Source of the DNA: Oscillospiraceae bacterium | GTDB lineage: Bacteria > Bacillota > Clostridia > Oscillospirales > SIG530 | Length of the DNA: 37,264 nt | Assembly: GCA_015067075.1 (NCBI GenBank) | Contig: SVND01000024.1 | Location: 1 to 37,264, forward strand | Direction: 5' to 3' | Shown: positions 7,934 through 29,318 of the stretch, one piece after another | How the letters are laid out: every line of letters begins with the position of its first letter | Numbering within the stretch: position 1 is the stretch's first letter | Translations under genes and position numbers: made by a program | The notes under the pieces: generated by a model | What the model was told of the DNA's origin: nothing | What the model saw: only the letters and a program-made list of their open reading frames with translations | The model's database searches: none

Positions 7934-9910
7934 TTATAAAGGCTTTTCCGAAGCCAAAATTATAAATTTATCGTAAGGCGCGATATTGGGAACGCGCACC
8001 TTTACACCATTTTTAGTGTACTGCGCCTGCATTTCAATTGCTTCGCCGTTATCGGCAACACAGTAAATATGGGGGATGCCCTTGACGCGAAGCACAACGT
8101 CAAATTCTTCTGTGCTGTCAAGGGTCGCGCTCATAAGAGTGAGCGCCATGTTGCGCTTGTCGGCAGACATACGGGCAAAGGGTACGACAGCGAGGCAATC
8201 CTCGATATAAACAGGCAGACCTTCAGGTGTCATATGCTCGAAAATGTTGAGAAGCTGTGCACGCTTTTCAATAGACCATGTGTATCTCCACGGATTGTAG
8301 CCGCTGACAACGACAAGACCGCCGAGCTCGTTTCTGTACGCTGTCTGACAAGGTCCGATATAATCGCCGTATATGCTTGTCATATCAGCCAAAACGCGAG
8401 TATCTTTGCTTAAAGGCTCTAAAACGTATCGGGAAGAAAAGCCCATATGATAGCTGTCGCGTATATATCCTGCGTATTCGCCGTTAAGCTCGTCATCTGT
8501 AAAAACTTCGCGTACACGGGTTTCATCTGTCGCAACAGCTTTTGCGCCGCAAAGGTGGCCAAGCCCCATTTTTTCAATGCAGACAAGAGCGTAGCCGTCC
8601 ATATAAGCTCCGCGTGCGAGAATATCGGTAAGCTCCTGCTTTGTGAAGCCTTCAACGAGGTTGCCTGTAAGAAGAGCAGGAGCGTCGCCGTTTGGGTTGG
8701 TGGAGATGGGAATACCCATTTTGGCGAAGGTGTACGTTTCGGAAAGCGGGGACATATTTTCTGTGAACCAATCCGTATCGTCACAGCTTCGGCGCACGCC
8801 GAAAAATCTGTTATAGGCAGGATAAAGTCCGACGTTTTTAAAGCCCTTGGAAAAATCGCATATACGCTTCCATGCGCCGCTTGCACGTTCGATCATTGCG
8901 AGATTTTTTTCATGCTGATGAGGTGCGTTGCTGACGAGATTGTAGGCAATTCCGTTAAGTCCGCAAGCATATGCCGCAAGGGATTCCATCTCAAGGATAT
9001 GGCGAGATTTTGACAAAGTGAAATAGGGGAAATTCTCCATTTCATATTGCCTGTCCGTGACGAAAGAGGGATAATACTCGTTTTGTGTCGCCATGTCGAA
9101 CATTTTGTTGAAAAAGCCCGCAGGCATACTGTCGTCGTAAAAACCGCCGCCGGGACGTGCTTTAGTTGCTCCTAAGGTTTTAAACCAACGGGGAAAATCG
9201 TTAGTGTTATATACGTTGAAATCCATACCCGACGTCATAAAGCCAAGCTTTATGGAAGGGTCTACGGCGTGAACGGTACGCTTTATAAGCGCTAAAACTC
9301 CGTCAATAAGGTCGGAGATATTCTCGGACCAGCGCTGACGCCATATGGGATCGCTTTTGTCGGAAATAGCTTTGCGTAGAGACTCGCGGGTAAAGCTCGT
9401 GCCGTATTTCGCACCGAATTTTGCAACGCAGGTATCGCAGGCACAGCCGTCGGCGCTTGCATTGTGATGATGCATACGCAGATCGTCATCCACCCAAATA
9501 AAATCGGGGTGCGCAGAAGCGTATATCGTATATTTTTCCGCGAGATACTCTGTATAGCCTTCGGCGTTTACGCAGGCTGTGCCGAGATCGATGGAGCCGT
9601 CAAAGCCGGTAAAAGCCGTGAAAGGCATTTGTGCTTGCCACGGTTCAGCTTCGCTTCCGTGCCCGATGGTAGTAAGGATATTGATACCGACGCTTTTTAC
9701 ACCTATCATATGAAGCGTGTCGATACGCTCGGCAAGGATCTGAGCTTCGCTTTTCATTTCGTCGATATCGCGATAAAAATGATGAGTTGGATCGGCGAAA
9801 AAAGCAACCTCGTCCACAACGGTTGGATGCTTTGCAAAAAGGGAGCAGAGCTCGTCGAAGGCATCATCGTAAAGCCAGATGACACAGGGGATTCTATAAG
9901 AAATAGCCAC
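7934..9910 (-). CDS. Large TIM-barrel glycosidase-like protein (GH42-like architecture), function unknown
   Basis: A 658-residue cytoplasmic protein. A frame extends to an ATG at 9943, but GAGGAGG sits 8 nt before the in-frame GTG at 9910, and a protein starting (V)AISYRIPCVIWLYDD makes a better barrel start, so I choose GTG. Residues about 1-420 look like a TIM barrel: IWVDDDLRMHHH near 155-165 holds acidic residues of a glycosidase-like active site. It is followed by GCACDTC, a Cys cluster like the metal sites seen in some beta-galactosidases. The middle (ALLTGNLVEGFTKQELTDIL, GYALVCIE) resembles the glutamine-amidotransferase-like trimerisation domain of GH42 enzymes. A beta-sandwich end follows. 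No known family is certain. It is first gene of the operon with the DUF4380-like protein. Confidence 0.65.
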   Translation of the reverse strand: MAISYRIPCVIWLYDDAFDELCSLFAKHPTVVDEVAFFADPTHHFYRDIDEMKSEAQILAERIDTLHMIGVKSVGINILTTIGHGSEAEPWQAQMPFTAFTGFDGSIDLGTACVNAEGYTEYLAEKYTIYASAHPDFIWVDDDLRMHHHNASADGCACDTCVAKFGAKYGTSFTRESLRKAISDKSDPIWRQRWSENISDLIDGVLALIKRTVHAVDPSIKLGFMTSGMDFNVYNTNDFPRWFKTLGATKARPGGGFYDDSMPAGFFNKMFDMATQNEYYPSFVTDRQYEMENFPYFTLSKSRHILEMESLAAYACGLNGIAYNLVSNAPHQHEKNLAMIERASGAWKRICDFSKGFKNVGLYPAYNRFFGVRRSCDDTDWFTENMSPLSETYTFAKMGIPISTNPNGDAPALLTGNLVEGFTKQELTDILARGAYMDGYALVCIEKMGLGHLCGAKAVATDETRVREVFTDDELNGEYAGYIRDSYHMGFSSRYVLEPLSKDTRVLADMTSIYGDYIGPCQTAYRNELGGLVVVSGYNPWRYTWSIEKRAQLLNIFEHMTPEGLPVYIEDCLAVVPFARMSADKRNMALTLMSATLDSTEEFDVVLRVKGIPHIYCVADNGEAIEMQAQYTKNGVKVRVPNIAPYDKFIILASEKPL

Positions 9911-9947
9911 AGGAAAAACCTCCTCGGTAAATCGATTCCGCAAGGAT

Positions 9948-14560: not shown

Positions 14561-15790
14561 TTATTCGATGCCCCAATCCTTTTTAGCTGCGGCAATATCT
14601 GCTTCCGTGGGTGCGAAAGGTTTTGAGCTGCAAGGCAAGGTAACGTTTCCGTTTTCATCGGGGAAGGGAGAGGCGTTGTCATTTTCGTATTTTACGCGGT
14701 CTTCTTCCTTGCTGAAATCGGGAATATCGTAGGGCTTGCCGCCTTCAAGAATACTGCGCCAGCCGAGAATAGCTGCGGAAGCCATAGCCGTTGCACGGTA
14801 TACGTTCCAATAGGGCTGCTGGTTTTTGCGGATAGATTCAAAGAAATTATGGATAACCCAGAAGTCGCCACCGCCGTGACCTGCTTTTTCAGCAAGCTCA
14901 CCAAGGTCTTTCCACTCAGCTTTATATATCTGGCTTGTGGGCGTATCCTCTTCGGGCTTGCTCCAATGATTGTAGCAAAGGCGAACGCTTCCCTCATCAC
15001 CGCGGACGACTTCGGCAGAGCCCTTTACGCAGGAAAGGCGATACCAATTTCCGTGAGGTGCAAAGCCTGCACAGCCTGTAACACGCATTATGGCATCCTT
15101 ATCTGTTTGAAGGAGCATGATAGCTGCGGAGTCGCCTGTGCGGATTGCTGTGCCGGGAAGAAGGTCGGGGTTGAATGCGGCCATAGCCGTAACTCTTGTG
15201 GGCATGGCGTCCGTCATCTGCATCAAGGGTGCAAGAGCGTGGGTGATGTAATAGGAGCGCGGAATCCAATTGCGCCAATGGTAGATGCCGGGGGCGAGGC
15301 CGTTTTTCTCCTTGGGAGAAACGGGATGGACGTATTCACCTTCAGCGTAGCAAAGGTTGCCGAGCGTGCCGCCCTTGTAAAGGCGTTCAAGCTCAAGGTT
15401 TGCGCACATGAAGGGATAGTTTTCAGCCAGCATATAGATAGCATCGGACTTTTCAACGGCTCGGCAAAGAGCAACACCGTCAGCCATCGTTCCGTTAGCC
15501 GTGCATTCGCTTAAAACGTGAATACCTTTTTCAAGGCAACGGATGGCGAAGGGAGCGTGCTCGTAGAAATAGTTGGAGAGCAAAACTGCCTCAAGTCCTT
15601 CGTGCTCAATAAAAGCGTCGAAATTGTCATAGCAGGTGATGTCGGGAATGGATTCCTTCCAGGAGTTGCGAGCACCTTCGTACTTGTCGCACATTGCAAC
15701 AATCTCGCCGCCGCAATTCTGGATGATCTTAATGAAGCTTGCGCCTCTTCCACTTCCACCGAATACACCGAGTTTGATTTTCTTTTCCAT
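14561..15790 (-). CDS. Atypical Gfo/Idh/MocA-family protein, paralogue A (GH109-like features)
   Basis: A 409-residue protein with an N-terminal NAD(P)-binding Rossmann fold (GVFGGSGRGASF, 8-19; acidic residue after strand 2 in MCDKYEGA) and the Gfo C-terminal domain. The family's EKP motif, whose Lys is catalytic in the dehydrogenases, reads SEC here (S94-E95-C96). The region AENYPF, GGTLGNLCYAEGEYVHP, YHWRNWIPRSYYITHALAPL parallels the order ENxxY, GxxGE, EGxYxH, W, THxxxP of GH109 NAD-dependent alpha-N-acetylgalactosaminidases. It may therefore be a hydrolase using a redox cycle instead of a simple dehydrogenase. No signal peptide. GGAGG precedes the ATG. It is last in the six-gene operon and is clearly paralogous to the gene at 16963-18207. 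Confidence 0.85.
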   Translation of the reverse strand: MEKKIKLGVFGGSGRGASFIKIIQNCGGEIVAMCDKYEGARNSWKESIPDITCYDNFDAFIEHEGLEAVLLSNYFYEHAPFAIRCLEKGIHVLSECTANGTMADGVALCRAVEKSDAIYMLAENYPFMCANLELERLYKGGTLGNLCYAEGEYVHPVSPKEKNGLAPGIYHWRNWIPRSYYITHALAPLMQMTDAMPTRVTAMAAFNPDLLPGTAIRTGDSAAIMLLQTDKDAIMRVTGCAGFAPHGNWYRLSCVKGSAEVVRGDEGSVRLCYNHWSKPEEDTPTSQIYKAEWKDLGELAEKAGHGGGDFWVIHNFFESIRKNQQPYWNVYRATAMASAAILGWRSILEGGKPYDIPDFSKEEDRVKYENDNASPFPDENGNVTLPCSSKPFAPTEADIAAAKKDWGIE

Positions 15791-15815
15791 TATACTTTAC
15801 CTCCGTGAGATATAA

Positions 15816-16856
15816 TTACTTCTCTAATCCGAGAAGCTTAGCTGCGTTATTATAAAATACGTCTGCTACTTGTTCTTTTGTAAGATTGCATTGCTGTGCC
15901 GCGCGCTTGAATGCGAGGATCTCTTCGTACATGAAGAATGTAAGATTGTCAGCCTCTTCGCCTTCGATCTCGCGCATATGGGAGTCGCCCGAAACGTCGC
16001 CGTAAGCACCTTTTTTGATAAGGTTGATATACTTGCCGTCTTCACAGATGCGCTTTGTTCTCAAACGCAATATAGGCATATCGCTTCCGAACATGATGCG
16101 GTCTGTTCCTACAGCTTCAATAAGCTTTATCATAGCTGTGTCAAGGCAGTTGGCGGAGAAATCAAACAGAAGGTTTTTGCTCTTTGAAAGAACCTCGAAA
16201 GCATCGCCAAAGTCGGACTCGCAGTAAGCTCTGCCGATGTGGGCAACGATGAGCTTGAGGTTGGGATACTTTTCATCGATCTCCATAAGCTGAGCAAGAT
16301 TTACCTTGTCCTTGAGTCTGCCGCTTCTGGGAATGTGGCACATAACTATCCAGCCGTGCTTATCCATAAGAGCGAGATGTTCGGGGGTGATGTAGTCGTA
16401 AATGCGTATTTCATTTGCGGGAATATATGAGGGAACATGATCGAGATAAGCCTTTATACCGTAAAAACCGCCTTCGATGATCTGCTTTTCAAGATATTCC
16501 GCTGACATTTCCGGATGGCTGTAGTAAAGAGCGGGAAAACCGGACTTTTTTGATGACTCGGAAACGTATGCGTTTTCTTTTTCAAAATTATCCTCAGGTC
16601 TTATGCTTGAAAACATGAGAGCCTTAACGTCCTTGTCGGGGAACATGAGCCTGTATGTTTCCTGAAGGTCCTCAATGGAATTATCCTTTGCAACGACGTT
16701 CGTCCAGCCGACGATACGTTCGTTGGCGATGCGGCTTCCTTCTACTTCGCGCTTATACACATGGCAATGTATATCTATCATTTTTTGGGGCAGAAAGTCA
16801 CGAAGCTCCTGCTCGTACACTATTCTGTCCACATCTCTGATTTCAAATAAACTCAT
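15816..16856 (-). CDS. Amidohydrolase-2 family metal-dependent hydrolase (lactonase/decarboxylase type)
   Basis: A 346-residue TIM-barrel amidohydrolase. Metal and active-site residues visible are H-x-H in MIDIHCHVY (near 30), His in MCHIPRSGR (near 172), His in VAHIGRAY (near 206) and Asp in MFGSDMPIL (near 255). In sugar operons this family often holds sugar-acid lactonases, the natural next step after a Gfo dehydrogenase, but decarboxylases share the fold, so the reaction is open. It lies 25 nt upstream of paralogue A and downstream of a large hairpin (16882-16936). A three-codon frame ATG-AAA-AAA-TGA overlaps its start codon and takes the best-placed AAAGG ribosome site, so translation may be coupled or restarted. 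Confidence 0.88.
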   Translation of the reverse strand: MSLFEIRDVDRIVYEQELRDFLPQKMIDIHCHVYKREVEGSRIANERIVGWTNVVAKDNSIEDLQETYRLMFPDKDVKALMFSSIRPEDNFEKENAYVSESSKKSGFPALYYSHPEMSAEYLEKQIIEGGFYGIKAYLDHVPSYIPANEIRIYDYITPEHLALMDKHGWIVMCHIPRSGRLKDKVNLAQLMEIDEKYPNLKLIVAHIGRAYCESDFGDAFEVLSKSKNLLFDFSANCLDTAMIKLIEAVGTDRIMFGSDMPILRLRTKRICEDGKYINLIKKGAYGDVSGDSHMREIEGEEADNLTFFMYEEILAFKRAAQQCNLTKEQVADVFYNNAAKLLGLEK

Positions 16857-16881
16857 TTTTTCATTATACCTTTCGTAAAAA

Positions 16882-16936
16882 GAGGTAAAGCAAACAAACC
16901 TATATCAAAAACGATATAAATTGAATGCTTTACCTC
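16882..16936 (-). terminator. Long imperfect stem-loop with T run inside the sugar operon (partial terminator or processing site)
   Basis: Outer arms TGCTTTACCTC (16926-16936) and GAGGTAAAGCA (16882-16892) pair over 11 bp. An inner stem TATATC (16901-16906) with GATATA (16913-16918) gives a second helix. On the minus strand five T bases follow. The outer arm contains GGAGGTAAAG, which is also the ribosome site sequence before the paralogue A gene. It probably lowers read-through from the upstream genes into the amidohydrolase, or stabilises the upstream mRNA. Confidence 0.6.
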
Positions 16937-16962
16937 CGTTTCATTTATGTTTTATTGCTTAA

Positions 16963-18207
16963 TTATTGGAGAAGGAATTCCGCGTTTTTCCAAGCTTCGT
17001 CTGCGCTTGCAAGGTCTTCTTCAGTCGGAGCATAGGGATTGGAGCAGCAGGGGATGTTTACATGGTAATTTTCGTCGGGATAGCAAGTGATAAAGTCTTT
17101 TTCATACTTGAGTTTATCCTCTTCCTTGCGGAAGTCGGGAATATCATAAGCCGTATTGCCGTTGAGAACGCTTCTCCAGCCGAGAATGGCAACGGATGCC
17201 ATAGCTGTTGCGCGGTATACGTTGAAGTAAGGTTCGGTCTTGTTTTCAAGGCACTTGATGAAATCGTAAACTACCCAGAAGTCGCCGCCGCCGTGTCCTG
17301 CAGTGTCAGCAATCTTGCCGAGCTCTTCATCGGGCCAGGAAAGGTCGTATTCCGTTACGTTGTTTTCAACGCCTTCGGGACGACACCAATCATTGTAAAT
17401 AAGGCGCATTCTGTTGTTGCTGTGGTTTGTTTCCATGCCGCCCTTTGTGCAGCAAAGCTTGTACCAATTTCCGTGAGGAGCATAGCCTGCCCAGCCGATA
17501 ACGCGCAAAACAGCGTTTGTGTCTGTCTGGCACATGATAACGCAAGCGGCGTCGCCTGTCTGAAGAGCAGTACCCTTAGCGATTTCGGGAGCAAAGGAAG
17601 CCATAGCCGTAACTCTCGTGGGCATAGCATCGGTCATCTTCATAAGAGGAGCGATAGCGTGTGTAAGATAATATGCGCGGGGAGTCCAGTTGCGCCAATG
17701 ACGTCTGCCGGGAGCGAGAGCGTTCTGTTCAGCCATGCTCATGGGGTGAGAATACTCACCTTCGGCGTAAACGAGCTTGCCAAGTGTGCCTTCTCTGAAA
17801 ACGCGTTCCATTTCAAGGTTTTCCTTGAAATACGGATAGTTTTCCAAAAGTGCATATGTCATACCTGTTTTTTCAACAGCGCGGCAAAGTCTGACACCGT
17901 CACCCATAGTTACGTTGGATGTGCATTCACTTAAAACGTGCTTGCCGTTTTCCATAGCCTTGATAGCAAAATCGCAATGCTCGTTGAAATAGTTTGCGAG
18001 CAAAACTGCGTCCATATCGTGCTTGATAAACTCGTCAAAGTTATCGTAAACAGCGGCGTCTGCAATCTCGGGGAACTTGTCCTTTACCCAAACGGGTGCG
18101 CTGGGACGGCGGTCGCAAATAGCGACTACTTCGCCGCCGGAAGCAAGAATGCTTTTAACGAATGTGTGACCTCTGCCGAGACCGAAAATACCGATTTTAA
18201 TTGCCAT
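16963..18207 (-). CDS. Atypical Gfo/Idh/MocA-family protein, paralogue B (GH109-like features)
   Basis: A 414-residue paralogue of the 14561-15790 protein, similar along its full length. The Rossmann glycine motif is GIFGLGRGHTF (6-16). EKP is again replaced by SEC (S93-E94-C95). LLENYPYFKENLEMERVF, GTLGKLVYAEGEYSHP, RHWRNWTPRAYYLTHAIAPL and GHGGGDFWVVYDF are shared with paralogue A. Two copies keeping the same unusual motif point to selection for a non-standard reaction. They may split substrates (for example two anomers or two sugars) or form a heteromer. AAAGGAG lies before the ATG. The gap of 70 nt to the gene upstream holds no clear promoter. Cytoplasmic. Confidence 0.85.
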   Translation of the reverse strand: MAIKIGIFGLGRGHTFVKSILASGGEVVAICDRRPSAPVWVKDKFPEIADAAVYDNFDEFIKHDMDAVLLANYFNEHCDFAIKAMENGKHVLSECTSNVTMGDGVRLCRAVEKTGMTYALLENYPYFKENLEMERVFREGTLGKLVYAEGEYSHPMSMAEQNALAPGRRHWRNWTPRAYYLTHAIAPLMKMTDAMPTRVTAMASFAPEIAKGTALQTGDAACVIMCQTDTNAVLRVIGWAGYAPHGNWYKLCCTKGGMETNHSNNRMRLIYNDWCRPEGVENNVTEYDLSWPDEELGKIADTAGHGGGDFWVVYDFIKCLENKTEPYFNVYRATAMASVAILGWRSVLNGNTAYDIPDFRKEEDKLKYEKDFITCYPDENYHVNIPCCSNPYAPTEEDLASADEAWKNAEFLLQ

Positions 18208-18277
18208 GATAAAAACTCCTTTGAAATGAATTTAAATTTATTTTAATGGTTTACCCAAATTGGATGCTGATTAGTGA

Positions 18278-19420
18278 TCATACCTCGCTGAGAGATACAG
18301 CACGCTTTTCATTGTGAGAAATAAGCGATGCGGTATGAAGGGCATGGGAGAAGCGCGTTTCCTCGGGAGTGAAGCAACCGAAATATACCTGCTTGCCTTC
18401 AAGCTCACACATAAACGATGCCCACATTTGCAAAATAGCGTCGGTGAAGCCGAATTCGAAAATATCGCCCGTAATGGTGGGGATCATGGGCTTTGTGCCA
18501 ATGACAACGCTGGACCAAGCCTGATTTTTACCTTCGGAGAAAAGGTAATGGAAGGTGTTGGGTGTATTTGTGGAGAACTTAACGGAAGCGTTAAGTCCCG
18601 TTACCTCGATGTACCAATCGTTTGTGGCGGAAGGTGCCATACGCTTCGTTTCAAGGTACATAGCAAATTCGTTGCCGTCCTTGTCCTCGCAAGTGCAGAT
18701 CATTGTACCGTTATCGTATGTATCGCAAACAGCCATACCGCCCTTTCCGTCGGGACGCTCCTTAACGATGTCGGATAAAACTGCGTATACACGCTTGGGG
18801 ATCCAGCCCATGCGGAAAGGCACGTGCTGGGTGTGAATGCCAAGGTCGCCAAGGCAACCGTAAACGCCGTTCATTTTTACGGTGCGCTTCCAGTTGATGG
18901 GCTTTGTTATATCAAGGTCGCTGGCGTGATTAAAGCCTGCCTTGACCTCCAAAATTCTGCCGAGCTTGCCTGACTCTATCCAGCGGATAAGCTCCTGACA
19001 AGCGGGAAAATAGGGAAATTCGCTGGCACATCTTACGATAACGTCGGGATTTTCGTCGATGACCTTAAGAATTGCTTCGTTTGCCGCCTTATCAATGCCG
19101 AAGGGCTTTTCACCGAGAAGATGCTTTTTTGCACGAATAATATCGCAATATACCTGCTCGTGCATATTGTGGGGAAGCGCGCAGTAAACGGCTTCAACCT
19201 CGGGCATTGCAAGGATCTCGTGATAATCGCTCGTTTCAAATTTTACCGTCGGGAAATTGTCGACGAACCATTTGCGTGCATCAGCACTGATATCGCATAC
19301 GGCAACTATCTCGGGTCGGGCGATATCCTCTTTAAGATGACACCATCTTGCGGATGCGGAGGCGAATTCTCTGCCCATAAGACCGCAACCGATTATGGCA
19401 AATTTAACTGTTTTCTTCAT
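18278..19420 (-). CDS. Gfo/Idh/MocA-family NAD(P)-dependent sugar dehydrogenase (canonical)
   Basis: A 380-residue protein with GCGLMG (11-16) for NAD(P) binding, the intact EKP motif in GEKPFG (E104-K105-P106), and GCLGDLGIHTQHVP near 195-208 carrying the Asp and His of the active site. These are the marks of a working sugar or cyclitol dehydrogenase, unlike its two operon neighbours. It starts 2 nt after the deacetylase stop and its AAAGGAG ribosome site lies inside the deacetylase gene, so the two are translationally coupled. A product lactone or keto-sugar could feed the amidohydrolase or the aminotransferase of this operon (inference). Confidence 0.92.
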   Translation of the reverse strand: MKKTVKFAIIGCGLMGREFASASARWCHLKEDIARPEIVAVCDISADARKWFVDNFPTVKFETSDYHEILAMPEVEAVYCALPHNMHEQVYCDIIRAKKHLLGEKPFGIDKAANEAILKVIDENPDVIVRCASEFPYFPACQELIRWIESGKLGRILEVKAGFNHASDLDITKPINWKRTVKMNGVYGCLGDLGIHTQHVPFRMGWIPKRVYAVLSDIVKERPDGKGGMAVCDTYDNGTMICTCEDKDGNEFAMYLETKRMAPSATNDWYIEVTGLNASVKFSTNTPNTFHYLFSEGKNQAWSSVVIGTKPMIPTITGDIFEFGFTDAILQMWASFMCELEGKQVYFGCFTPEETRFSHALHTASLISHNEKRAVSLSEV

Positions 19421-19422
19421 AA

Positions 19423-20250
19423 TTATTCTCCTTTAACTACGGCTTTTTCACCGGGCATAAGCTTGATGTTTTCACCGTTTGCGACAAACCAAACGGTTTT
19501 ATCCGTAGGATTAGTGATTTCATTTCTGTTTATTTCAAGAGCTTCAAAGGCCTTTACAGCTTCGTATATTTCCATATTCGTTGCCATCCAGACCTGGTCC
19601 TTGGCATCGGAAATCGCCTTGAAAAGATCTTCGGCAACATACCAATTGTTGTGGTAATCGAACTCGTTGGCGTGGCCCCATACATAGAAATGGAACGGGT
19701 CGCCCACGGGAGTTTCCTTTACAAAACGTTCCGTAAGCGCAGGTAATCCGTCATAATTGTGATGGCAGGTTGAAGGGAGGCGAAGCCAATCCTTCGGTAA
19801 AGAAAAGTCGTGAGTTGCATCACAGGTTCTGGAATAAAGGATGCCGCATTTTTTTGCAATTTCGATGACTTGCTCGCTGTATGTGCCGTAGGGGTATGCC
19901 ATACCTCTTACACGGACACCGAAAACCTCTTCAAGGGCGCGGATATCCTCCGCTATTTCGTATTCAACGTCTGCAGGCTCAAGCTTTTCAAGAAAAGGAT
20001 GAGTTACGCCGTGAACAGCTATCTCAAAGCAACCGCTTTCATCGCAAAGAGCTTGTCTTGCTTGCTCCTTTGTGAAAAACTCGCCCGCATCTCTTCTTGG
20101 CGGAAAGTAGCCTGAATTGAGATTGAATGTGCCGCGGATACCGTATTTTTTCATAAGCTTTGAAAAAGGTATGACGGGATGTCTGTTGTCATCGTAGCTT
20201 ACGGTAAAGGTTTTTGCCTTGAAGTTTTCAAAACGCAAATAAAGCTCCAT
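19423..20250 (-). CDS. NodB-type polysaccharide/carbohydrate deacetylase
   Basis: A 275-residue metal-dependent deacetylase. Motif 1 is SYDDN (D20-D21; family TFDDG), motif 2 is HGVTHP (H-x3-H near 80-84), motif 3 is RGMAYPYGTYS (near 114), and WGHANEFD (near 192) supplies the late His. There is no signal peptide, unusual for cell-wall deacetylases, so a small intracellular N-acetylated sugar or oligosaccharide is a more likely substrate than peptidoglycan. It sits between the aminotransferase and the dehydrogenase; removing an acetyl group before acting on the amine would be a logical order (inference). AAAGGAG lies 8 nt before the ATG. Confidence 0.92.
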   Translation of the reverse strand: MELYLRFENFKAKTFTVSYDDNRHPVIPFSKLMKKYGIRGTFNLNSGYFPPRRDAGEFFTKEQARQALCDESGCFEIAVHGVTHPFLEKLEPADVEYEIAEDIRALEEVFGVRVRGMAYPYGTYSEQVIEIAKKCGILYSRTCDATHDFSLPKDWLRLPSTCHHNYDGLPALTERFVKETPVGDPFHFYVWGHANEFDYHNNWYVAEDLFKAISDAKDQVWMATNMEIYEAVKAFEALEINRNEITNPTDKTVWFVANGENIKLMPGEKAVVKGE

Positions 20251-20278
20251 ATTTATTCTCCTTTGTTACATTAGAGAT

Positions 20279-21838
20279 CTACTTTTTTGCTGCAGTCATT
20301 TCCGTAAAAACAAGCTCCATCTTTCCGACGAGAGAGTCGATGAGCGCTTTGGAAGCGATGAGGGGAAGCTTGAGGAGTGCGGCAGGGGGACAAAAAGCCT
20401 TGTAAAGCTGAGCACTTACGTCAAAGCCGTATGCGGAAAGCTTCTTTACAAAAACGGAGGTCTCGTCGATATCATGGAATACGATGGCGCTGAGAAGTTC
20501 AAGCCCCTCAATGTCGCGGATGATATCGGAATACTTATCCTTGAGTGCTCGCACCTTGCTTTCGTAGTAATTGCCGACAGCAGTTATTTCAGCGCTGTTT
20601 TGCTCTGAAAATTCCATAGTGATAAGGTAAGATAAAGAAGCAAGCTCTTCCTGACCGTTTGTAACGAGAGCGCCAAACTGATTGAGCGTATCCATTTCCG
20701 CTGTAAGAAGGATCTTGGAAGCGGGATACTGACCGCCCGGGAAGCCCTTGCCGACGACAACGAAGTCGGGGTTGAGTCCGTACTTGCGGAAAAGAAACAT
20801 ACCTTCGTACCACATACAGGACTGTATCTCGTCGCACATAACGGGGGTGTCACCTGCATGGCAGATCTCATATGCTTCGTGAAGAAATTCTGGAGTAAGT
20901 CTTATTCCGCCGTAATTCATAAGGATTATTTCGTGAGTAAAGCCTGCTACCTTATATTCGCCCTGATTGTACTTTTCGTATTTGGTGCGGAAGTCGTCAA
21001 TGTCGTTGATTGCAACGGGAACTACCTTGTAAGCACCTGCGCTTTCGTATTTGCCGTAAAGCTCGGGCCACATATCGCGGAGCGTCTGAGCAAAGGTCGT
21101 TGTTCCGTGATAGTTTGCAAGTCTGCCGTTGTCGTAGTCACCCATAATGAAAAATACGGGGATGCGACCGCTGTACTTCGGAGTGGGGAATGTCTTGTCA
21201 AGCTTATAGAACTTGGAAAGCATCATCTTAAAGCCTGCCTCACAAGCCAAAGAGCCTGTTTCAAGGTTGATAACGCGGTTGAGAACGTGCTTTTCCGTGC
21301 TCTTGAGAATAGCGTCGAGCTTTTCTGTTTCATCCTTTTTAAGACCGTTTGCACAGCGGACAAGCTCGCGCTCGCAAAGACGTGTTATGTATCCGCGAGT
21401 ATTATTGTGCGTTGCGTTGGAAATACCGAGCGCGCGGGCATTGTCGATGAGGCGGTAGCCGGGAAAGGCGTGACCCATGGGAACGTGGTAATGCTCGGAT
21501 TTTGTCACGGCGTAAAGACGGCCGTCCTGACCGACACGGTACCAACCGAAGCCGAAAACAGGGCTTGATTCGGGATGGTAAGCGGCGGCAAAGGAATTTG
21601 TGGGCGCGCCGTGGACGTTTGTTTCAAAAGCAGGAGCTATCTGTGTGCCAATTTTATCAACCATTTCGTCGAGTCTTGCGGCGAAGGGGGCAGGGTAAAA
21701 AGCTACCTGCTCGTCAGCCAAAGCGGAAAGGTCTTCTTTGTTGCCGTAACCTACTATAGCCGCGGCGTTTACGGCGGCATCTGTATATTCCTTGCCGAGA
21801 ATGTCTCTTAACGACATGGAAATGTTTGTTTTCATCAT
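20279..21838 (-). CDS. Class III PLP-dependent aminotransferase
   Basis: A 519-residue class III (omega/GSA-type) aminotransferase. The cofactor Asp is in VMCDEIQSCM (about 335) and the Schiff-base Lys in VVVGKGFPGG (about 363), followed by the Thr/Asn-containing FGALVTNGQEE. The protein is 60-100 residues longer than usual because of an N-terminal region and an insertion around residues 200-270. Substrate unknown; in this setting an amino sugar or keto-sugar is possible, but most members act on amino acids, diamines or GSA. It is the first gene of the six-gene minus operon, just behind the sigma-A promoter at 21882-21910. AAAGGGG precedes a double ATG, so the start could be one codon later. 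Confidence 0.9.
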   Translation of the reverse strand: MMKTNISMSLRDILGKEYTDAAVNAAAIVGYGNKEDLSALADEQVAFYPAPFAARLDEMVDKIGTQIAPAFETNVHGAPTNSFAAAYHPESSPVFGFGWYRVGQDGRLYAVTKSEHYHVPMGHAFPGYRLIDNARALGISNATHNNTRGYITRLCERELVRCANGLKKDETEKLDAILKSTEKHVLNRVINLETGSLACEAGFKMMLSKFYKLDKTFPTPKYSGRIPVFFIMGDYDNGRLANYHGTTTFAQTLRDMWPELYGKYESAGAYKVVPVAINDIDDFRTKYEKYNQGEYKVAGFTHEIILMNYGGIRLTPEFLHEAYEICHAGDTPVMCDEIQSCMWYEGMFLFRKYGLNPDFVVVGKGFPGGQYPASKILLTAEMDTLNQFGALVTNGQEELASLSYLITMEFSEQNSAEITAVGNYYESKVRALKDKYSDIIRDIEGLELLSAIVFHDIDETSVFVKKLSAYGFDVSAQLYKAFCPPAALLKLPLIASKALIDSLVGKMELVFTEMTAAKK

Positions 21839-22050: not shown

Positions 22051-22848
22051 TTGGGTAAGCACGCAGAAAGAGAAGAAGCTATTTTATCTGTATTAAGATG
22101 TAGATCGCAAATAACCACATTCGAGGCGATAGACCTTTTAAATGTTTCGGAGTCTACAGCGAGAAGATTGTTCAATGATCTCGTTGAAAAGGGAAAGGCG
22201 ATACGTCAGTATGGCGGAATTCGTCTTGCACAAAACAGCGCGTATGAATATTCCTTCGAAAGACTCATGGATGAAAATGCTGAAGAAAAACAGGCTATAG
22301 CTAACAAGGCTGTCGAATTTATCAGCGACCATGATATTATTTTCTTTGATTCGGGTACAACTGTATACAGACTTTGCCTTGCTTTGGCTGAAAAGATAAA
22401 AAGCGGCGCGCTGAGCGATATTACCGTGTTCACAAACTCCTCCTCAAATCTTCAGCCCCTGGCTGAAGTGTGCGAGGTCACGCTTGTCGGCGGTAAGTAC
22501 AGACCGAAGAGAATGGACTTTGCAGGATTTTCCGCAAATAAGTTTATCTCCAACTTTAATTTCACAAAAGCGTTTTTAGGTACTGACGCTGTAAACATAG
22601 CAGACGGATTTATGACTACCGATACGGATACGGCTATGACAACGGAGCTTGTAATTGAGCGCTCGGATACGATAATCGTGCTGGCTGATGCAGGAAAGAT
22701 CGGAAGACGTTCCTTTATGAGCTATGCTAAGCCCCAGGATATTGACGTGCTTGTTACGAGCATGGGCGCAGATATGCAGGTAGTGGAAAAGCTTCGTAAA
22801 ACAGGCACGAAGGTATTGACTGTAAATCCGAAAATAACGGAAAGATAA
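22051..22848 (+). CDS. DeoR-family sugar-responsive transcriptional repressor
   Basis: A 265-residue regulator. The N-terminal winged helix-turn-helix spans about 20-58 (FEAIDLLNVSESTARRLFND, then GKAIRQYGG). The DeoRC sugar-phosphate sensor domain follows, with FFDSGTTVYRL (about 99-109), VFTNSSSNL, VTLVGGKYRP, FLGTDAVNIADGFMTTD and VLADAGKIGRRSF. Members usually bind DNA until a phosphorylated sugar of the pathway they control loosens them. It starts with TTG at 22051, 8 nt after AAAGGGG. It is divergent from the aminotransferase-Gfo operon, which makes that operon, and perhaps the isomerase-EamA-GH110 genes behind it, the likely regulon. Confidence 0.95.
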   Translation: MGKHAEREEAILSVLRCRSQITTFEAIDLLNVSESTARRLFNDLVEKGKAIRQYGGIRLAQNSAYEYSFERLMDENAEEKQAIANKAVEFISDHDIIFFDSGTTVYRLCLALAEKIKSGALSDITVFTNSSSNLQPLAEVCEVTLVGGKYRPKRMDFAGFSANKFISNFNFTKAFLGTDAVNIADGFMTTDTDTAMTTELVIERSDTIIVLADAGKIGRRSFMSYAKPQDIDVLVTSMGADMQVVEKLRKTGTKVLTVNPKITER

Positions 22849-22855
22849 GGCTGTT

Positions 22856-23044
22856 ATGGATATAGCCGTCGGAGATATACTGATAATGAAAAAAAAGCAC
22901 CCTTGCGGAAGCGATAAAATGACGGTGTTGCGGATAGGGATGGATTTTCGCCTTAAATGCAACGGTTGCGGTCATGAATTTATGGTCGTCCGCTCAAAGG
23001 CGGAGCATTCCGTAAAGCATGTGCTGAAAAAAGAAGAGATATAA
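22856..23044 (+). CDS. DUF951 family protein
   Basis: A 62-residue protein with the DUF951 pattern: GDILIMKKKHPCGSDKM at the start, then RLKCNGCGHEFMVVRS. Cys17, Cys35 and Cys38 could bind a metal, probably together with a further ligand. Widespread in Firmicutes, function unknown. It begins 8 nt after the DeoR stop and shares its transcript; in other genomes DUF951 genes sit near housekeeping loci, so the link to the sugar genes may be chance. Confidence 0.9.
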   Translation: MDIAVGDILIMKKKHPCGSDKMTVLRIGMDFRLKCNGCGHEFMVVRSKAEHSVKHVLKKEEI

Positions 23045-23047: not shown

Positions 23048-23076
23048 TTCGGCATGATTTCTCATGCCGAATTTTT
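23048..23076 (+). terminator. Terminator of the DeoR-DUF951 transcript
   Basis: A 10-bp perfect stem TTCGGCATGA with TCATGCCGAA, 4-nt loop, followed by TTTTT. Confidence 0.92.
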
Positions 23077-23116
23077 ATGTTTTAATGAAAAAATTTCGAA
23101 AAAAGCAAAAAACTGC

Positions 23117-23145
23117 TTGAAGAAAAAACGAAATTAGTATATAAT
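23117..23145 (+). promoter_or_regulatory. Promoter of the isomerase-EamA-GH110 operon
   Basis: TTGAAG (23117-23122) and TATAAT (23140-23145), spacer 17 nt, 40 nt before the ATG at 23186. Confidence 0.7.
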
Positions 23146-23185: not shown

Positions 23186-23965
23186 ATGGCACTTCCTGTT
23201 GCATTACAGCTTTTCTCTGTAAGAGATGATATGGCTAAGGATTATAAAGCAACGCTTAAGGCTGTTGCTGAAATGGGTTATCAGGGCGTTGAGCTTGCAG
23301 GTATTTTCGGCAACGCCGAAGAAATGAAGGCTGAACTTGACAAAAACGGTCTTGTAGCAATTTCAGCCCATGTAGGTATTGATGCTATCCTTAACGATAC
23401 GGAAAAAACTCTCGGTGCACACAAAACGATAGGATGCAAATATATCGCCATCCCTTATCTTGCTGACGAGGATCGTCCCGACGCTATTGGCTTTGACGGA
23501 ACGGCGGAGAAGGTATCGAAGGCTTGCAAGCTCATAAATGAGTATGGAATGATAGCTCTTTATCATAATCACGCTTTTGAATTTGACCTTATCGACGGCA
23601 AGCATTGGCTTGATACGATGTATGAATGTATTCCTGCGGACGTACTGCAGACGGAGCTTGACACGTGCTGGGTAAACGTAGGCGGAGAGGACCCTGCCGA
23701 GTACATATATAAGTATGCGGGAAGAGCACCTGTTTTGCATTTGAAGGATTTCGTACAAAAGGGAAGAAAGCTTGAAGATCCTGAGCTTGATTTTGCATTC
23801 CGTCCCTTCGGACACGGTGTTCAGGAGCATGAAAAGATTCTTGAAGCGGCTGAAAAGTGCGGCGTTGAATGGCTCGTTGTTGAACAGGACAGCCCGCAAA
23901 CAGGAAAAACTCCCATGGAATCTGTAAAGCTCAGCAGAGAATTTCTTAAAAAAGCAGGTTTCTAA
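23186..23965 (+). CDS. Sugar phosphate isomerase/epimerase-like TIM barrel protein
   Basis: A 259-residue AP-endonuclease-2-fold protein of the IolE/xylose-isomerase-like group. It starts LPVALQLFSVRDDM and has the barrel strands GYQGVELAG, ISAHVG, CKYIAIPYL. The metal-site residues include YHNHAFEF (near 127), QTELDTCWVN (Asp/Glu near 152), HLKDF (near 178) and a late Glu in LVVEQDS. It may isomerise or epimerise a keto-sugar or inositol-type compound, the product type that a Gfo dehydrogenase would make. AAAGAGG precedes the ATG. The stop abuts the EamA start (TAAATG), so the two are coupled. Confidence 0.9.
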   Translation: MALPVALQLFSVRDDMAKDYKATLKAVAEMGYQGVELAGIFGNAEEMKAELDKNGLVAISAHVGIDAILNDTEKTLGAHKTIGCKYIAIPYLADEDRPDAIGFDGTAEKVSKACKLINEYGMIALYHNHAFEFDLIDGKHWLDTMYECIPADVLQTELDTCWVNVGGEDPAEYIYKYAGRAPVLHLKDFVQKGRKLEDPELDFAFRPFGHGVQEHEKILEAAEKCGVEWLVVEQDSPQTGKTPMESVKLSREFLKKAGF

Positions 23966-24871
23966 ATGAACAAAAAGCAACTTACGGCAAATCTGCTTTT
24001 GCTGATAACCGCTTTTATATGGGGTGTTGCCTTTGTTTCACAGCGTGTTGGATCGGAATATCTCGGAGCGTTTACCTTTAACGGTGTTCGTTTTGCGTTG
24101 GGCTGTGTGGCTCTTTTGCCGCTGTATCTTGCGCTTAACGTGAAAAAAGATGTGAAGTATACGCCGAAGAAGATAAGAAACGATATAAAGGGCGGTATTA
24201 TTTGCGGCACCGTCATGTTTATCGCAAGCTCACTTCAGCAGATCGGCGTTACATACACAACGGCAGGAAAAGCAGGATTTATAACCGGACTTTACGTAGC
24301 ACTCGTACCTGTTTTTGCGCTGATATTTTTGAGAAAAAAATCCCCCGCAACTATTTGGATAGGAATGGTCTTTGCAGCAATAGGCTTATATCTGCTTTGC
24401 GTTGAAGAGGGCTTTTCCATCGCAATGGGCGATATAATCGTGTTCATCGGCTCATTTTTCTGGGCGGGACATATTCTCGTCATAGACAAATTTGCAAACG
24501 AGGTTGACGCCATAGAGCTGAGCATAATCCAGTTTGCCACTTGCGGAATACTCAGCTTGATCGTGGCTTTGATATTTGAGCCTATCACGGCAAAGGGCGT
24601 TACACAGGCGGCTGTTCCCATACTTTACGGCGGCGTTTGCTCCGTTGGTATAGCGTACACCCTTCAGGTTATCGGTCAGAAACACGCAAAACCAGCTCAT
24701 GCGGCAATTATATTGAGCCTTGAATCTGTTTTCAGCGTTCTGGCAGGCGTTGTGATACTCCATGAAAAGCTTGCTCCGAGGGGAATAATCGGATGCGTTT
24801 GCATTTTTGCGGCGCTTATAATATCTCAGACGGATTTCAGCAAAATGTTAAAACGAAAAAAAGCGCAGTAA
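23966..24871 (+). CDS. EamA/DMT-family membrane transporter
   Basis: A 301-residue protein with about ten hydrophobic segments in two EamA repeats. The first repeat starts NLLLLITAFIWGVAFVSQRV and the second near VFIGSFFWAGHILVIDKFA. Drug/metabolite transporters of this type move small metabolites or amino acids, most often outward; nucleotide-sugar and sugar transport also occur in the superfamily. It starts directly at the isomerase stop with no spacing and only a weak GCAGG site, typical of coupled translation, and lies 15 nt before the GH110 gene. Its cargo is unknown; it could import a small glycoside or export an end product of the pathway. Confidence 0.93.
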   Translation: MNKKQLTANLLLLITAFIWGVAFVSQRVGSEYLGAFTFNGVRFALGCVALLPLYLALNVKKDVKYTPKKIRNDIKGGIICGTVMFIASSLQQIGVTYTTAGKAGFITGLYVALVPVFALIFLRKKSPATIWIGMVFAAIGLYLLCVEEGFSIAMGDIIVFIGSFFWAGHILVIDKFANEVDAIELSIIQFATCGILSLIVALIFEPITAKGVTQAAVPILYGGVCSVGIAYTLQVIGQKHAKPAHAAIILSLESVFSVLAGVVILHEKLAPRGIIGCVCIFAALIISQTDFSKMLKRKKAQ

Positions 24872-24886
24872 AGAAAGGTGCTTATT

Positions 24887-26611
24887 ATGAAAATCGTAAA
24901 TATATTGGATTTTGAATCGCATAAGGTTGGAGATGATTGGACTCCTGCCGTGACTGCAGCTCTTGAGAGTATTTCAAAGGATGAAGAGGCTACGCTGTTT
25001 TTCCCGAAAGCCGAATATACTTTTTATCCCGACAAAGCAAAGATATGCGAAGTTCATCCGACACATAACGGTCAAGGTCCCCGAAGCGTTATTTTTGACC
25101 TTGAGCATAGAAAGAATTTCACTCTTGATGCAAACGGAAGTGACTTTCTGTTTGTCGGTCAAGCGTATCCGTTTTGGTGTTATGAGTGCGAAAATCTTAC
25201 GTTAAAAGGGTTTTCCGAAGATTTTGACAGAATGTTTCTTACTCAAGCAACTGTTACAGAGTCAAATCAAGAATACTTTGACGTCGAAATTGACAAAGAA
25301 AAATATCCGTATAAAATAGAGGACAATGCACTTTATTTTTACTCTGATTATTGGTGCGAGGGCGGACCTGACATGGTTCATTTCCTCACGGAATTTGATC
25401 CGAAGACAGGTAGTGTAGCATACGACAGTGCATACTTTTTCCTTTCCGCCAATGCGGATCCGTCACAGATAGACAGACAGCTTCTTTTGAAAAAGCTTGA
25501 GCCGTTAACGGATAATTCCTTCCGCTTATACGTCAATAATCCGAAGCCACCGCGCAAGGGAAATGTGGTTGTCTTTTTGCACGCGCACCGTTCGCCGGTA
25601 GGTGCATATATTGAAAAATGTACGGACGTAACCGTCGAAGATATGTATCTTTACCATTGCGGCGGCATGGGCATTGTATGTGACAATTGCAAAAATATCA
25701 AGCTCAATCGTGTAAACGTAATTCCGAAACCCAACAGCGGTCGTTTGATTTCAATAAATGCCGATGCGACGCATTTTACACATTGTGAAGGCTATATTCG
25801 CATAACTGATTGTGTTTTTGAAGGCATGATTGACGATGCAATTAATATTCACGGATTTTATACCGTTATTGACAGCATTGCCGATGAGCATACTGTGTAT
25901 GCAACGTATTATCCCAGCGCTCATGAATGTATTTGCGACGGGGATAAGCTTGCCGTTATCGACAGAGATACGATGCAAACCGTTGCATATGTTACGGTAA
26001 AACATGTTCACAGTGAAAATACACCTGAATTTTTCATGGGAGTTCAGCCGAAAGCGTCAATTCATAACGGACCTAAGGTCAAGCTTGTTTTTGAAGAGCC
26101 TATTTCCGAAGCTGTTCGAGAAGAAATGGTATTTCAAAATCTGACTAAAGACCCTACCGAAGTGTATGTTGGCAATATCAAAACGGGAAAAAATCGCCCA
26201 CGCGGTATTCTTATTTCCACAGCGGCACACACAGTAATTGAAAATTGCGAATTTTATAATTCGGAAGCGGCAATAGACTTTACCTGCGATGCGAAATATT
26301 GGTTTGAAAGTACTGCTGCGGCAGATGTTACTATTCGAAATAACCGTTTTGTTGACTGTGCCCACGCATCTTTCTGCGGCGTAATTCGTTCGTGCCCTTT
26401 AATTCCGAAGGGAAATACTGTTTTTCATAAGGGTATAAAGATTTACGATAATGTTTTTGAGTCTTTTTCACCCCTTATGCTTGAAATGAATCACGCCGAG
26501 TTTGATTTCCACGACAACACGTATATAAAGAAAACCGATGTGTATAAGGAAATTGAAAGGCCGCACATAATCGCAACGTATTGTGACATGAAATGTAACG
26601 GTGTAAAGTGA
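24887..26611 (+). CDS. GH110-type alpha-galactosidase (right-handed beta-helix), apparently intracellular
   Basis: A 574-residue parallel beta-helix protein. NADATHFTHCEGYI and FEGMIDDAINIHG match the most conserved part of GH110, exo-alpha-1,3-galactosidases that remove the blood-group B galactose. D293, D316 and D317 have the same spacing (23 and 1) as the catalytic Asp trio reported for a Pseudoalteromonas GH110 (321, 344, 345). Repeating coils such as CTDVTVEDMYLYHCGGMGIV and TVIENCEFYNSEAAID follow the beta-helix pattern. There is no signal peptide, while characterised GH110s are usually exported, so this copy should work on imported oligosaccharide. AAAGG lies before the ATG at 24887; a GTG at 24878 is inside the ribosome site. 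It ends the operon begun by the isomerase and EamA genes. Confidence 0.85.
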   Translation: MKIVNILDFESHKVGDDWTPAVTAALESISKDEEATLFFPKAEYTFYPDKAKICEVHPTHNGQGPRSVIFDLEHRKNFTLDANGSDFLFVGQAYPFWCYECENLTLKGFSEDFDRMFLTQATVTESNQEYFDVEIDKEKYPYKIEDNALYFYSDYWCEGGPDMVHFLTEFDPKTGSVAYDSAYFFLSANADPSQIDRQLLLKKLEPLTDNSFRLYVNNPKPPRKGNVVVFLHAHRSPVGAYIEKCTDVTVEDMYLYHCGGMGIVCDNCKNIKLNRVNVIPKPNSGRLISINADATHFTHCEGYIRITDCVFEGMIDDAINIHGFYTVIDSIADEHTVYATYYPSAHECICDGDKLAVIDRDTMQTVAYVTVKHVHSENTPEFFMGVQPKASIHNGPKVKLVFEEPISEAVREEMVFQNLTKDPTEVYVGNIKTGKNRPRGILISTAAHTVIENCEFYNSEAAIDFTCDAKYWFESTAAADVTIRNNRFVDCAHASFCGVIRSCPLIPKGNTVFHKGIKIYDNVFESFSPLMLEMNHAEFDFHDNTYIKKTDVYKEIERPHIIATYCDMKCNGVK

Positions 26612-26650
26612 TTTAAAAGTGATTTTGAAGCAAAATACTAAGTACATGAG

Positions 26651-26679
26651 AAAGAGCTCGGTTTAGCACCGAGCTCTTT
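26651..26679. terminator. Bidirectional terminator between GH110 and the convergent lipoprotein gene
   Basis: A 12-bp perfect stem AAAGAGCTCGGT with ACCGAGCTCTTT, 5-nt loop, T run on the plus strand and A-rich start giving T bases on the minus strand. Confidence 0.92.
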
Positions 26680-26690
26680 TTGCTGTTTTA

Positions 26691-29318
26691 TTATTTTGCG
26701 TTTATGATAGCTGTCATATAAACGTCGATTTCGGGGAACGTGATCTCGATATAAGCGCCGTTTACGGTGAAATCTGTGCCGGCTGTAAGCTCGACAAATT
26801 TGCGTGTAGCGCTGTCCATAAGACGAACGGAAATGTCTTCCTTGCCCCAAAGCGTGTTAGGCATACGAACTGTAGTCTTTACGCCTGCATCTATCTTTGT
26901 AAGCTCGTCGCTTTCAAGGTCAAGCTGCATATTTACGATATCGACGAAGAGTGTCTCGTTGGACGGAGCGTAATTGAGCGTTGTGATAACGCTGTCGGGA
27001 AGATTTTCAACGGAGAGAAGCTTGTTTAACTTGCCCTCGTCGTAAAGTTCGTTTATAAGGCTTGCAATATCGTTGAGGAAAAATTCGTCAAGGGATTCAC
27101 GGTCATACTTTTTGTGATAGATCATGTAATCCATGGTAGGATCGCTTTCGTAATAGATGATCTTACCATTGCCCGAATACGTGTTGGCAAGATCGACAAG
27201 CAAAGCGGAGCCGTTATAGATATATGAGCTGTCAACTGAACCGATAATACCTGCTTCGTCGCCCGTTATGATAAGTACACCGCCTCTGTCGAGGAAGGGC
27301 ATGAGAATTCCGTCGATGACATCCTTATCCATGGAGCGTACGTTGGGAAGGATAAGCACGTTGAGAAGGTCTATGGTCTGCTCAAGGCGAAATTCATGGA
27401 GACTGCGGTAGGGGATGTTGAGCTCGTCAAAGGCGTGGCACCAGCCCATGTAGCTGAGCGTTGTTGCGTTCTTTTCCGATGTGACAAAGCCGCCGGGAGT
27501 GATCTGTGACATTTCACTGTCGGAGGAATACATAACGCCTATTTCAGCGTAAGTACCTCTGTCGGCAAAGTCATTTTTAAGCTTGCCGATAACGTCAAAT
27601 ACCTTTGTCGTTGTGTTGTTTGTTCCTGCTACCGACGTCATACCGTCGCCGAGAGTGATGGTGCAGTTGTAAGCGAGAGCTTCATATGCGAGAACGTAGC
27701 CGAGGTTCTTGTTGCGCTCATAGCCCTCTGTATAATACCAGACGTTGCCGTTTTTACTGCGTGCCGTGTTGGCAAGGAGAGAATATACGTGACCTGAATA
27801 GCCGTTTGGCGGATAGCCGGCTGTTGTAAAGCCCGTAACGGCGGAATAAGTAGCGTTATACTCCGTATGGACCATATCAAGCGTTTCGCCTTCAAACGCA
27901 CCGTAAATGAGGTAGGGAAAGTCGTTTGCGCAAACAGCGATATCGTCGCCGTCCCTGCCGAGCTTTTCGGCAGTTTCTTTTATAATGGTGAAAAGTTCAG
28001 AGCTGTATTTGCAGTTGGACTGTGCTTTAAAAGCTATATAAGCCATCCAAAGGGGATCGGAAAGCCAAGAGGGATCGCGCCACGTCATAGAGTTTGTATT
28101 GTCAAATACAAGGTCAAATTGCGGATCGATCTCCGATGCTTTTTCGCAAAGATATTCACGGATATTGAAGTTCTCGTCGGGGGTAAAGCCTATTTCGGGA
28201 TGTGCAAGCAAGTATTCATTGAACATTGCTTCGCTCCAATCGCCGAAAATGCGGTTGTTGGGTGTGTTACTGAAGTTGTCCCAGCCGTTCCAGTTGTCGA
28301 TCCAGAAATAATCAACACCGAGACCGAGAAGATATTCGACGGCGTTGCGTGCGTATTCGTTCCAGAAGGGAGCGGCGCTGTCCTTGCCGATGCCGAGACT
28401 GAGCGTGTAATATTCAAGTCCGTTTTGTGCAACAATGTGTATCGTTCCCGTCGTGTCGCCGTCGTAGTTGCTGAGCTCTTCAATGCGGAATACGTCACCG
28501 CGGATGCTTTTTGCACCGCAAGCGTCATAAAGCTTTGCAAGCTGAGGTGTGGAATAATCGCCGCCGTCAAGGTATCCGATGGCAGATGCGCCGTCGGGGT
28601 ATGTGGGCAGAGCCATTTCGGGGTAACTGCTTATTACATACTTACCAAGCCAATCTTCGCCGTTTACAAAGGAATGAACACCGCCGAAAACTACCTTATT
28701 TATGACGGGATTTTTCTGGGGACTGCTCATTGCCCAATTCCAGCTGTTGGCGTATATCTTGGGACCTTCCACATACTCACTCTGCTCAAAAGAGCCGTCT
28801 TCGTTTTGATGGATACCGAAAATAAAGTTGTTGGTGTCGCCCTGGCACTCTATCCATGCGCCCGTCTTTATGCCGAGAGTTTTTGCAGCTTCTATCGTAC
28901 CTGCGACGTTTTGCTCGACGGCGCTATATTCACGGAAGAAGGGACCGCGTCCTTCGTCGCAAACGACCGTTCCTGTTGTGTCGGCATTTATATCAAACGC
29001 ACCGATGCCTGAACCGACGGATGAAAAGCGAGCCCAATTGTCCCACCATCCCAGCGTTTCCCGTACGGCGACCTTATCAGCGGGGGAAAGAGCGTTTGCT
29101 ACGGCTATGGCATCATACTGTGCTTTCTCGCGAGCGATCTTCTCGGGATCCTCCGCAGGTGTGGGTGTTTCAGCTGATGTGGGTGCAGGTGTTTGCGATG
29201 TATCCTGCGGAGTGGGTGTTACATCAGGATTATCTTGCTGAGGCTGACAGGCGCATATTGAAAAAACGAGCGCTGTACAGATGCAAAGAAGAAATATGGT
29301 TTTGCCTAAATGCTTCAT
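26691..29318 (-). CDS. Lipoprotein with TIM-barrel glycosidase fold and GATase-like domain, unassigned family
   Basis: An 875-residue lipoprotein. The signal ends ALVFSICAC with the lipid Cys at 22 or 24. A TP-rich linker runs to about 55. The catalytic-looking barrel (about 85-560) holds TLGWWDNWARF, GIKTGAWIECQGD, GVDYFWIDNWNGWDN (near 345; Asp candidate) and FDLVFDNTNS (near 425). Then VLILPNVRSMD and GGVLIITGDEAGI (near 690-730) look like the glutamine-amidotransferase-like domain of GH42-type enzymes, and a beta-sandwich ends the chain. This architecture suits a surface glycosidase that trims glycans before import. I cannot place it in a known GH family. It has a perfect sigma-A promoter (29355-29383). 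It is convergent with the GH110 operon, so they are separate transcripts. Confidence 0.75.
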   Translation of the reverse strand: MKHLGKTIFLLCICTALVFSICACQPQQDNPDVTPTPQDTSQTPAPTSAETPTPAEDPEKIAREKAQYDAIAVANALSPADKVAVRETLGWWDNWARFSSVGSGIGAFDINADTTGTVVCDEGRGPFFREYSAVEQNVAGTIEAAKTLGIKTGAWIECQGDTNNFIFGIHQNEDGSFEQSEYVEGPKIYANSWNWAMSSPQKNPVINKVVFGGVHSFVNGEDWLGKYVISSYPEMALPTYPDGASAIGYLDGGDYSTPQLAKLYDACGAKSIRGDVFRIEELSNYDGDTTGTIHIVAQNGLEYYTLSLGIGKDSAAPFWNEYARNAVEYLLGLGVDYFWIDNWNGWDNFSNTPNNRIFGDWSEAMFNEYLLAHPEIGFTPDENFNIREYLCEKASEIDPQFDLVFDNTNSMTWRDPSWLSDPLWMAYIAFKAQSNCKYSSELFTIIKETAEKLGRDGDDIAVCANDFPYLIYGAFEGETLDMVHTEYNATYSAVTGFTTAGYPPNGYSGHVYSLLANTARSKNGNVWYYTEGYERNKNLGYVLAYEALAYNCTITLGDGMTSVAGTNNTTTKVFDVIGKLKNDFADRGTYAEIGVMYSSDSEMSQITPGGFVTSEKNATTLSYMGWCHAFDELNIPYRSLHEFRLEQTIDLLNVLILPNVRSMDKDVIDGILMPFLDRGGVLIITGDEAGIIGSVDSSYIYNGSALLVDLANTYSGNGKIIYYESDPTMDYMIYHKKYDRESLDEFFLNDIASLINELYDEGKLNKLLSVENLPDSVITTLNYAPSNETLFVDIVNMQLDLESDELTKIDAGVKTTVRMPNTLWGKEDISVRLMDSATRKFVELTAGTDFTVNGAYIEITFPEIDVYMTAIINAK

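Follow-up and report, generated by a model that had tools for sequence, protein, structure and literature searches.

The window, as we call the whole stretch of 37,264 nt that was analysed (Oscillospiraceae bacterium, GCA_015067075.1, contig SVND01000024.1, forward strand), contains a gene for a GH110 alpha-galactosidase homologue, which is the last of a unit of three genes (Table 1). The first gene of this unit encodes a xylose-isomerase-like protein and the second an EamA permease; judged from their arrangement, the three genes probably form one operon. The promoter-like pattern upstream of the unit is of a kind that was barely above chance in the scan (16 sites versus 11.4 expected in shuffles). 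The hairpin that precedes it would separate the unit from the gene for a DeoR/GlpR-type protein, which is a possible regulator. No NCBIfam match was obtained for the small ORF between this gene and the hairpin.

Table 1. Coordinates of the genes and features discussed in the text
Feature	Position	Strand	Size	Basis or remark
Exported protein, GH39-like and CBM4_9 domains	884..4516	-	1210 aa	
ORF without leader-like stretch	7934..9943	-	669 aa	
Gene group beside the DeoR gene	14561..21838	-		
DeoR/GlpR-type repressor	22051..22848	+	265 aa	Pfam/NCBIfam
Small ORF between DeoR gene and hairpin	22856..23044	+	62 aa	
Hairpin followed by TTTTTA, after the small ORF	~23048..23079	+		direct sequence inspection; scan puts stem on other strand
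Promoter-like TTGAAG-17-TATAAT	23117..23145	+		pattern match only
Xylose-isomerase-like TIM barrel	23186..23965	+	259 aa	PDB 8bvk, 1.3e-31
EamA/DMT-family permease	23966..24871	+	301 aa	Pfam EamA 3.5e-39
GH110 alpha-galactosidase homologue	24887..26611	+	574 aa	without export signal
Terminator-like hairpin 3' of GH110	26649..26681	+	14 pairs	hairpin scan
Predicted lipoprotein, convergent with GH110	26691..29318	-	875 aa	
Tandem GH110 paralogues, own genome, contig C44	L027:7899-9605 and 9747-11450			catalytic Asp trio kept

Several other features of the window were recorded. For the predicted lipoprotein neither a Pfam or NCBIfam match at 0.001 nor a PDB sequence match at 0.01 was found. The group beside the DeoR gene consists of three Gfo/Idh/MocA oxidoreductases (14561-19420), an amidohydrolase, a polysaccharide deacetylase and a class III aminotransferase. 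The N-terminus of the exported GH39-like protein (GDTNGDGSINIVDVLDILK) resembles a dockerin repeat, and the 669-aa ORF gave no Pfam or NCBIfam match.

The open reading frame of the GH110 homologue (24878-26611, + strand) has an ATG at 24887, with AGAAAGG about 8 nt in front of it. The EamA and GH110 genes share a reading frame, and the preceding in-frame stop is the TAA of the EamA gene (24869-24871), 15 nt 5' of the ATG, so that a GH110 start with an added leader is impossible. In the N-terminus itself an uncharged hydrophobic stretch was looked for with a simple 11-residue test and was not found. The N-terminal signal peptide that is usual for, but does not define, secreted GH110s is absent from the window protein. 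The sequence-only reading had described a GH110 without export signal at this position, and had named an upstream start that adds a signal peptide, or the lack of a GH110 match, as what would speak against it. The former is excluded by the stop codon.

As to the latter, the best PDB match in a phmmer search was 7jw4 (PdGH110B) with E 6.2e-61 over residues 2-557; all nine PDB matches with E <= 1e-30 were GH110 or alpha-1,3-galactosidase chains, and the sole further one among the matches listed was 4mxn (E 0.61). A profile of the four GH110 paralogues of the window's own genome matched 7jw4 at 1.8e-98. Pfam recognized GLAA-B beta-barrel domain I (1.1e-14) and Beta_helix (2.5e-9). The former, together with an AlphaFold2 model based on a 34-row alignment (mean pLDDT 90.0, pTM 0.91), indicated the GH110 architecture of a parallel beta-helix with small beta-barrel domains; strand or helix begins at residue 2 of the model. 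Foldseek rows 1-15 were all GH110 chains, after which E jumped from 8.9e-32 to 2.1e-7. By VIA-align the GH110 entries (9beh, 7jw4, 9i4f and others) scored Z 46.6-37.5 and the best non-GH110 fold 31.6, the model and 9beh agreeing with Z 46.6 and an rmsd of 1.8 over 531 residues. Other beta-helix proteins, which appeared lower in the Foldseek and VIA-align lists, were attributed to the common fold. The full-length homology, the in-frame stop and the N-terminus without hydrophobic stretch thus bear out that this is a GH110 without export signal.

The roles of the residues were taken from the work on PdGH110B of Pseudoalteromonas distincta (7jw4, 7jwf; excerpts of PMC7939477). In the printed alignment its catalytic D321, D344 and D345 correspond one to one to D293, D316 and D317 of the window protein, the numbers and spacing of which had been read correctly from the sequence, and by homology these three residues are catalytic. 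Also conserved are R235, N320, R437, R439, W472 and E474 (R265, N348, R451, R453, W486 and E488 in PdGH110B), whereas N85, E480, K207 and R208 are replaced by H60, T466, D180 and S181. At the -1 subsite for unmodified galactose R235, N320, R439, W472 and E474 are kept and the positions of N85 and E480 are altered, which implies that the galactose pocket differs from that of PdGH110B. In an alignment of 34 leaderless GH110 homologues (A2), D293, D316, D317, N320, H322 and E474 were invariant in all rows and the W472 position was Trp in 31. PdGH110B thus resembles the window protein in its whole-length fold, Asp trio, Trp platform and most -1 residues; it differs by the four residues lost and by its signal peptide (residues 24-620 were cloned; excerpts of PMC7939477), and acts on lambda-carrageenan oligosaccharides (excerpts of PMC12549532). 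The blood-group-B alpha-1,3-galactosidases PpaGal (9i4f), Akkermansia 8pvs and Bifidobacterium bifidum AgaBb (8yk1) have the same fold (Z 46.0, 43.5 and 37.5, respectively) at 23-27% identity, and 9i4f and 8pvs share the catalytic residues by alignment. The window protein is a genuine and probably active GH110, predicted to work in the cytosol.

The own genome (2.26 Mb, 85 contigs) has four GH110 paralogues of 567-574 aa: the window gene, a tandem pair on C44 and a single gene on C33. None of the four has a leader; identity between the window protein and each of the other three is 30-35%. A scan of genome contigs yielded three distant loci only. The tandem pair has a Cys at the position of the Trp that forms the galactose platform, hinting at an altered substrate for these two. 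Within the order, 47 of 394 genomes gave a GH110 match (E <= 1e-10), and in a class sample 26 of 391 did (profile search, E <= 1e-20). The loci fetched from these searches, being those of the best matches only, yielded 74 distinct GH110-like ORFs. By an 11-residue test of N-terminal hydrophobicity (threshold 1.9; start taken as the first codon after the stop) 62 of these were without a hydrophobic N-terminal stretch and 12, mostly long proteins, had one; L018 counted as signal-bearing at 1.9 and as leaderless at 2.0, and L070, with an open frame of 1744 aa, was scored leaderless, perhaps wrongly. Among the homologues of 520-630 aa from order and class, 53 of 56 were leaderless by this test and 3 had a leader. 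Together with the four own paralogues this indicates that, as far as sequence tells, GH110s without a leader are widespread in the order and class of the window's genome, and that the window GH110 belongs to this broad class. The cytosolic Firmicute version that the sequence-only reading had seen here is therefore supported, but it is not unusual. In the available excerpts of the GH110 literature no earlier report of a leaderless GH110 was found, and the class is apparently undescribed there.

In a tree of four PDB references and 70 of the 74 ORFs (four were dropped for length), the window protein clustered with the other GH110s of its genome (support 90, not starred), nested in a group of 23 that are all leaderless (support 87), and its branch had no strongly supported sister. 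The leader label changed 9 times on the tree versus 13.9 times in shuffles; because the deep branches are weak, it is not established that leaderlessness arose only once. 8pvs and PpaGal formed a starred branch of their own away from the window protein, which, with regard to the earlier proposal to place it among the GH110 subfamilies, thus lies outside these subfamily B references in a tree that held no recognized subfamily A reference.

Exported proteins of Gram-positives tend to avoid cysteine. The window GH110 has 19 Cys in 574 aa (3.3%), and the median Cys content was 2.83% in leaderless homologues versus 1.12% in signal-bearing ones (Mann-Whitney p 6e-7, related sequences not being independent). 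The tree supported four independent pairs for Cys versus leader, two of which agreed and none of which went against the trend (p=0.5). L104 is leaderless and Cys-poor (0.5%). The cytosolic EF-G of the window has 0.85% Cys; since cytosolic proteins can be Cys-poor, the test is informative in one direction only. With so few independent changes, Cys content was discarded as independent proof of location and is only suggestive of a cytosolic one.

The sequence-only reading had paired the GH110 with a transporter and had read substrate uptake from this. The EamA gene is indeed present 15 nt upstream and in the same frame, but it is not a shared partner. Counted over 245 genomes of the order (G000-G244; GH110 status from the order search), EamA homologues were common, occurring in 104 (E <= 1e-40), 85 of them without GH110 match; this amounts to 19/33 GH110 genomes versus 85/212 others (p=0.09). 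At 24 other EamA loci, with flanks of at most ~1.5 kb, neither GH110 nor isomerase was nearby. EamA was rejected as a conserved GH110 partner on these grounds, and the uptake inference drawn from it is not supported; that the protein belongs to GH110 and lacks an export signal is supported. The permease lies between the first gene and GH110 in one apparent unit, which would fit a dedicated importer of the GH110 substrate; against such a role speak its distribution and its NCBIfam matches, all far below cut-off, which include metabolite exporters, and we regard it as quite improbable.

The first gene, an operon partner that had been overlooked, is a better functional clue than EamA. Among PDB chains its product is closest to 8bvk. 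The O-glycoside beta-eliminase AtOGE of Agrobacterium and the roles of its residues are described in excerpts of PMC10628242, which carries the code 8BVK; as H132, H134, D163, H189, E233, E39, H66 and E161 fall on the exact letters of the 8bvk chain, we infer from this numbering that 8BVK is AtOGE. The window protein shares 74 of 232 aligned residues with AtOGE and has E36, H62, H127, H129, E157, D159, H185 and E233 conserved. The eliminase signature, Mn-binding His/Asp/His/Glu (H132, D163, H189 and E233 of AtOGE) plus the catalytic His (H134), is thereby kept, as are E39, H66 and E161; Asn52 of AtOGE, which comes from the partner subunit, is Lys48. The same Agrobacterium locus holds a second putative sugar phosphate isomerase, suggested to be a hydratase (excerpts of PMC10628242). 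Since the latter bears a similar isomerase name, the window protein could be an eliminase or a hydratase. The eliminase-like gene was found in 104 of the 245 genomes (E <= 1e-30), namely in 25/33 GH110 genomes versus 79/212 others (p=4e-5, relatedness not corrected). No second member of the trio was found at 24 other isomerase loci (flanks of at most ~1.5 kb). Given this and the 24 EamA loci, the trio appears local to its own lineage, as sampled; the whole operon as a conserved unit was absent from the GH110, isomerase and EamA loci examined.

The surroundings of GH110 in other genomes were compared at 23 loci (L086-L105 and L005-L007), several of which are near contig ends, and proved variable; neighbours were found by a query set, and Pfam names were obtained for 40 selected proteins, of which 36 came from these loci. 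An SBP was present at three (L086, L090 and L091), with two permeases beside GH110 in L086 and L090; at the other 20, some ending at a contig edge, the query set detected neither an SBP nor a permease homologue. Gfo/Idh/MocA oxidoreductases also occurred at three (L091, L096 and L099), and GH95 (L086), GH2 (L094) and DeoR (L095) once each. Uptake of intact alpha-galactosides, as proposed earlier, remains likely on the ground of the ABC importer genes near 3 of the 23 loci and not on the EamA evidence. In L086 (3774-11513) a leaderless GH110 and a GH95, leaderless as judged by eye, lie in one run with the SBP and two ABC permeases. As GH95 includes alpha-1,2-fucosidases (Roseburia RiFuc95; excerpts of PMC7335108), this pair, found in L086 and not in the window, would suit B-antigen oligosaccharides, and the run may encode a cytosolic pathway for oligosaccharides resembling the B antigen. 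A precedent is Roseburia, where import is followed by cytosolic action of GH95 and GH29: its loci likewise combine an ABC importer with leaderless GHs working intracellularly, but they use GH112, GH136, GH95, GH29 and GH36, GH110 not being among them (excerpts of PMC7335108). The own genome of the window has one galactokinase gene (C11) and 12 hits to the ABC permease domain, some of them adjacent in pairs (C59, C17 and C22); none of these genes was positionally linked to GH110. The genome therefore has the means both for uptake and for the use of galactose.

We consider it likely that the third gene of the probable operon encodes a functional cytosolic GH110 exo-alpha-galactosidase that acts on imported alpha-galactosyl oligosaccharides or glycosides. 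These would enter intact, probably by means of an ABC importer whose genes lie elsewhere; the enzyme would cut off the terminal alpha-galactose with inversion, D316 serving as the acid and D293 and D317 activating the water, and the released galactose would follow a galactokinase-dependent route. By analogy with the family, a preference for alpha-1,3 linkages may be expected. A GH110-fold enzyme of changed specificity, acting on a different alpha-galactoside, on modified galactose or on some other sugar instead of Gal-alpha-1,3-Gal, is a possibility that we rate lower. It would agree with the identity of only ~31% to PdGH110B, with the changes to H60, T466, D180 and S181, with the Trp platform missing in two own paralogues, and with PdGH110A, where a change at the E480 position accompanies room for 6-sulfate (excerpts of PMC12549532). 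However, W472, E474, R235, N320, R437 and R439 are kept, and for two enzymes of the blood-group-B type the printed alignment shows C or A at the E480 position.

It is rather doubtful that GH110 works in a mixed pathway, in which it would uncap an imported glycoside, whereupon the eliminase-like enzyme and a nearby Gfo/Idh/MocA oxidoreductase would together oxidize C3 of the next sugar and cleave it by beta-elimination; if true, GH110 would serve a plant or host glycoside and not blood group B. That the enzyme leaves the cell by non-classical export or lysis and works extracellularly would be in line with the signal peptides predicted for PdGH110A and PdGH110B (excerpts of PMC7939477 and PMC12549532), but the N-terminus, the many Cys and the cytosolic-type, eliminase-like operon partner make this very improbable.

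The GH110s characterized so far are known as exported enzymes and are used for blood group B conversion. A large leaderless class, some members of which lie near ABC importer genes and one near a GH95 gene, suggests that alpha-galactosylated oligosaccharides are taken up whole by these bacteria and digested privately, and it offers a supply of soluble, signal-free GH110 enzymes for screening.
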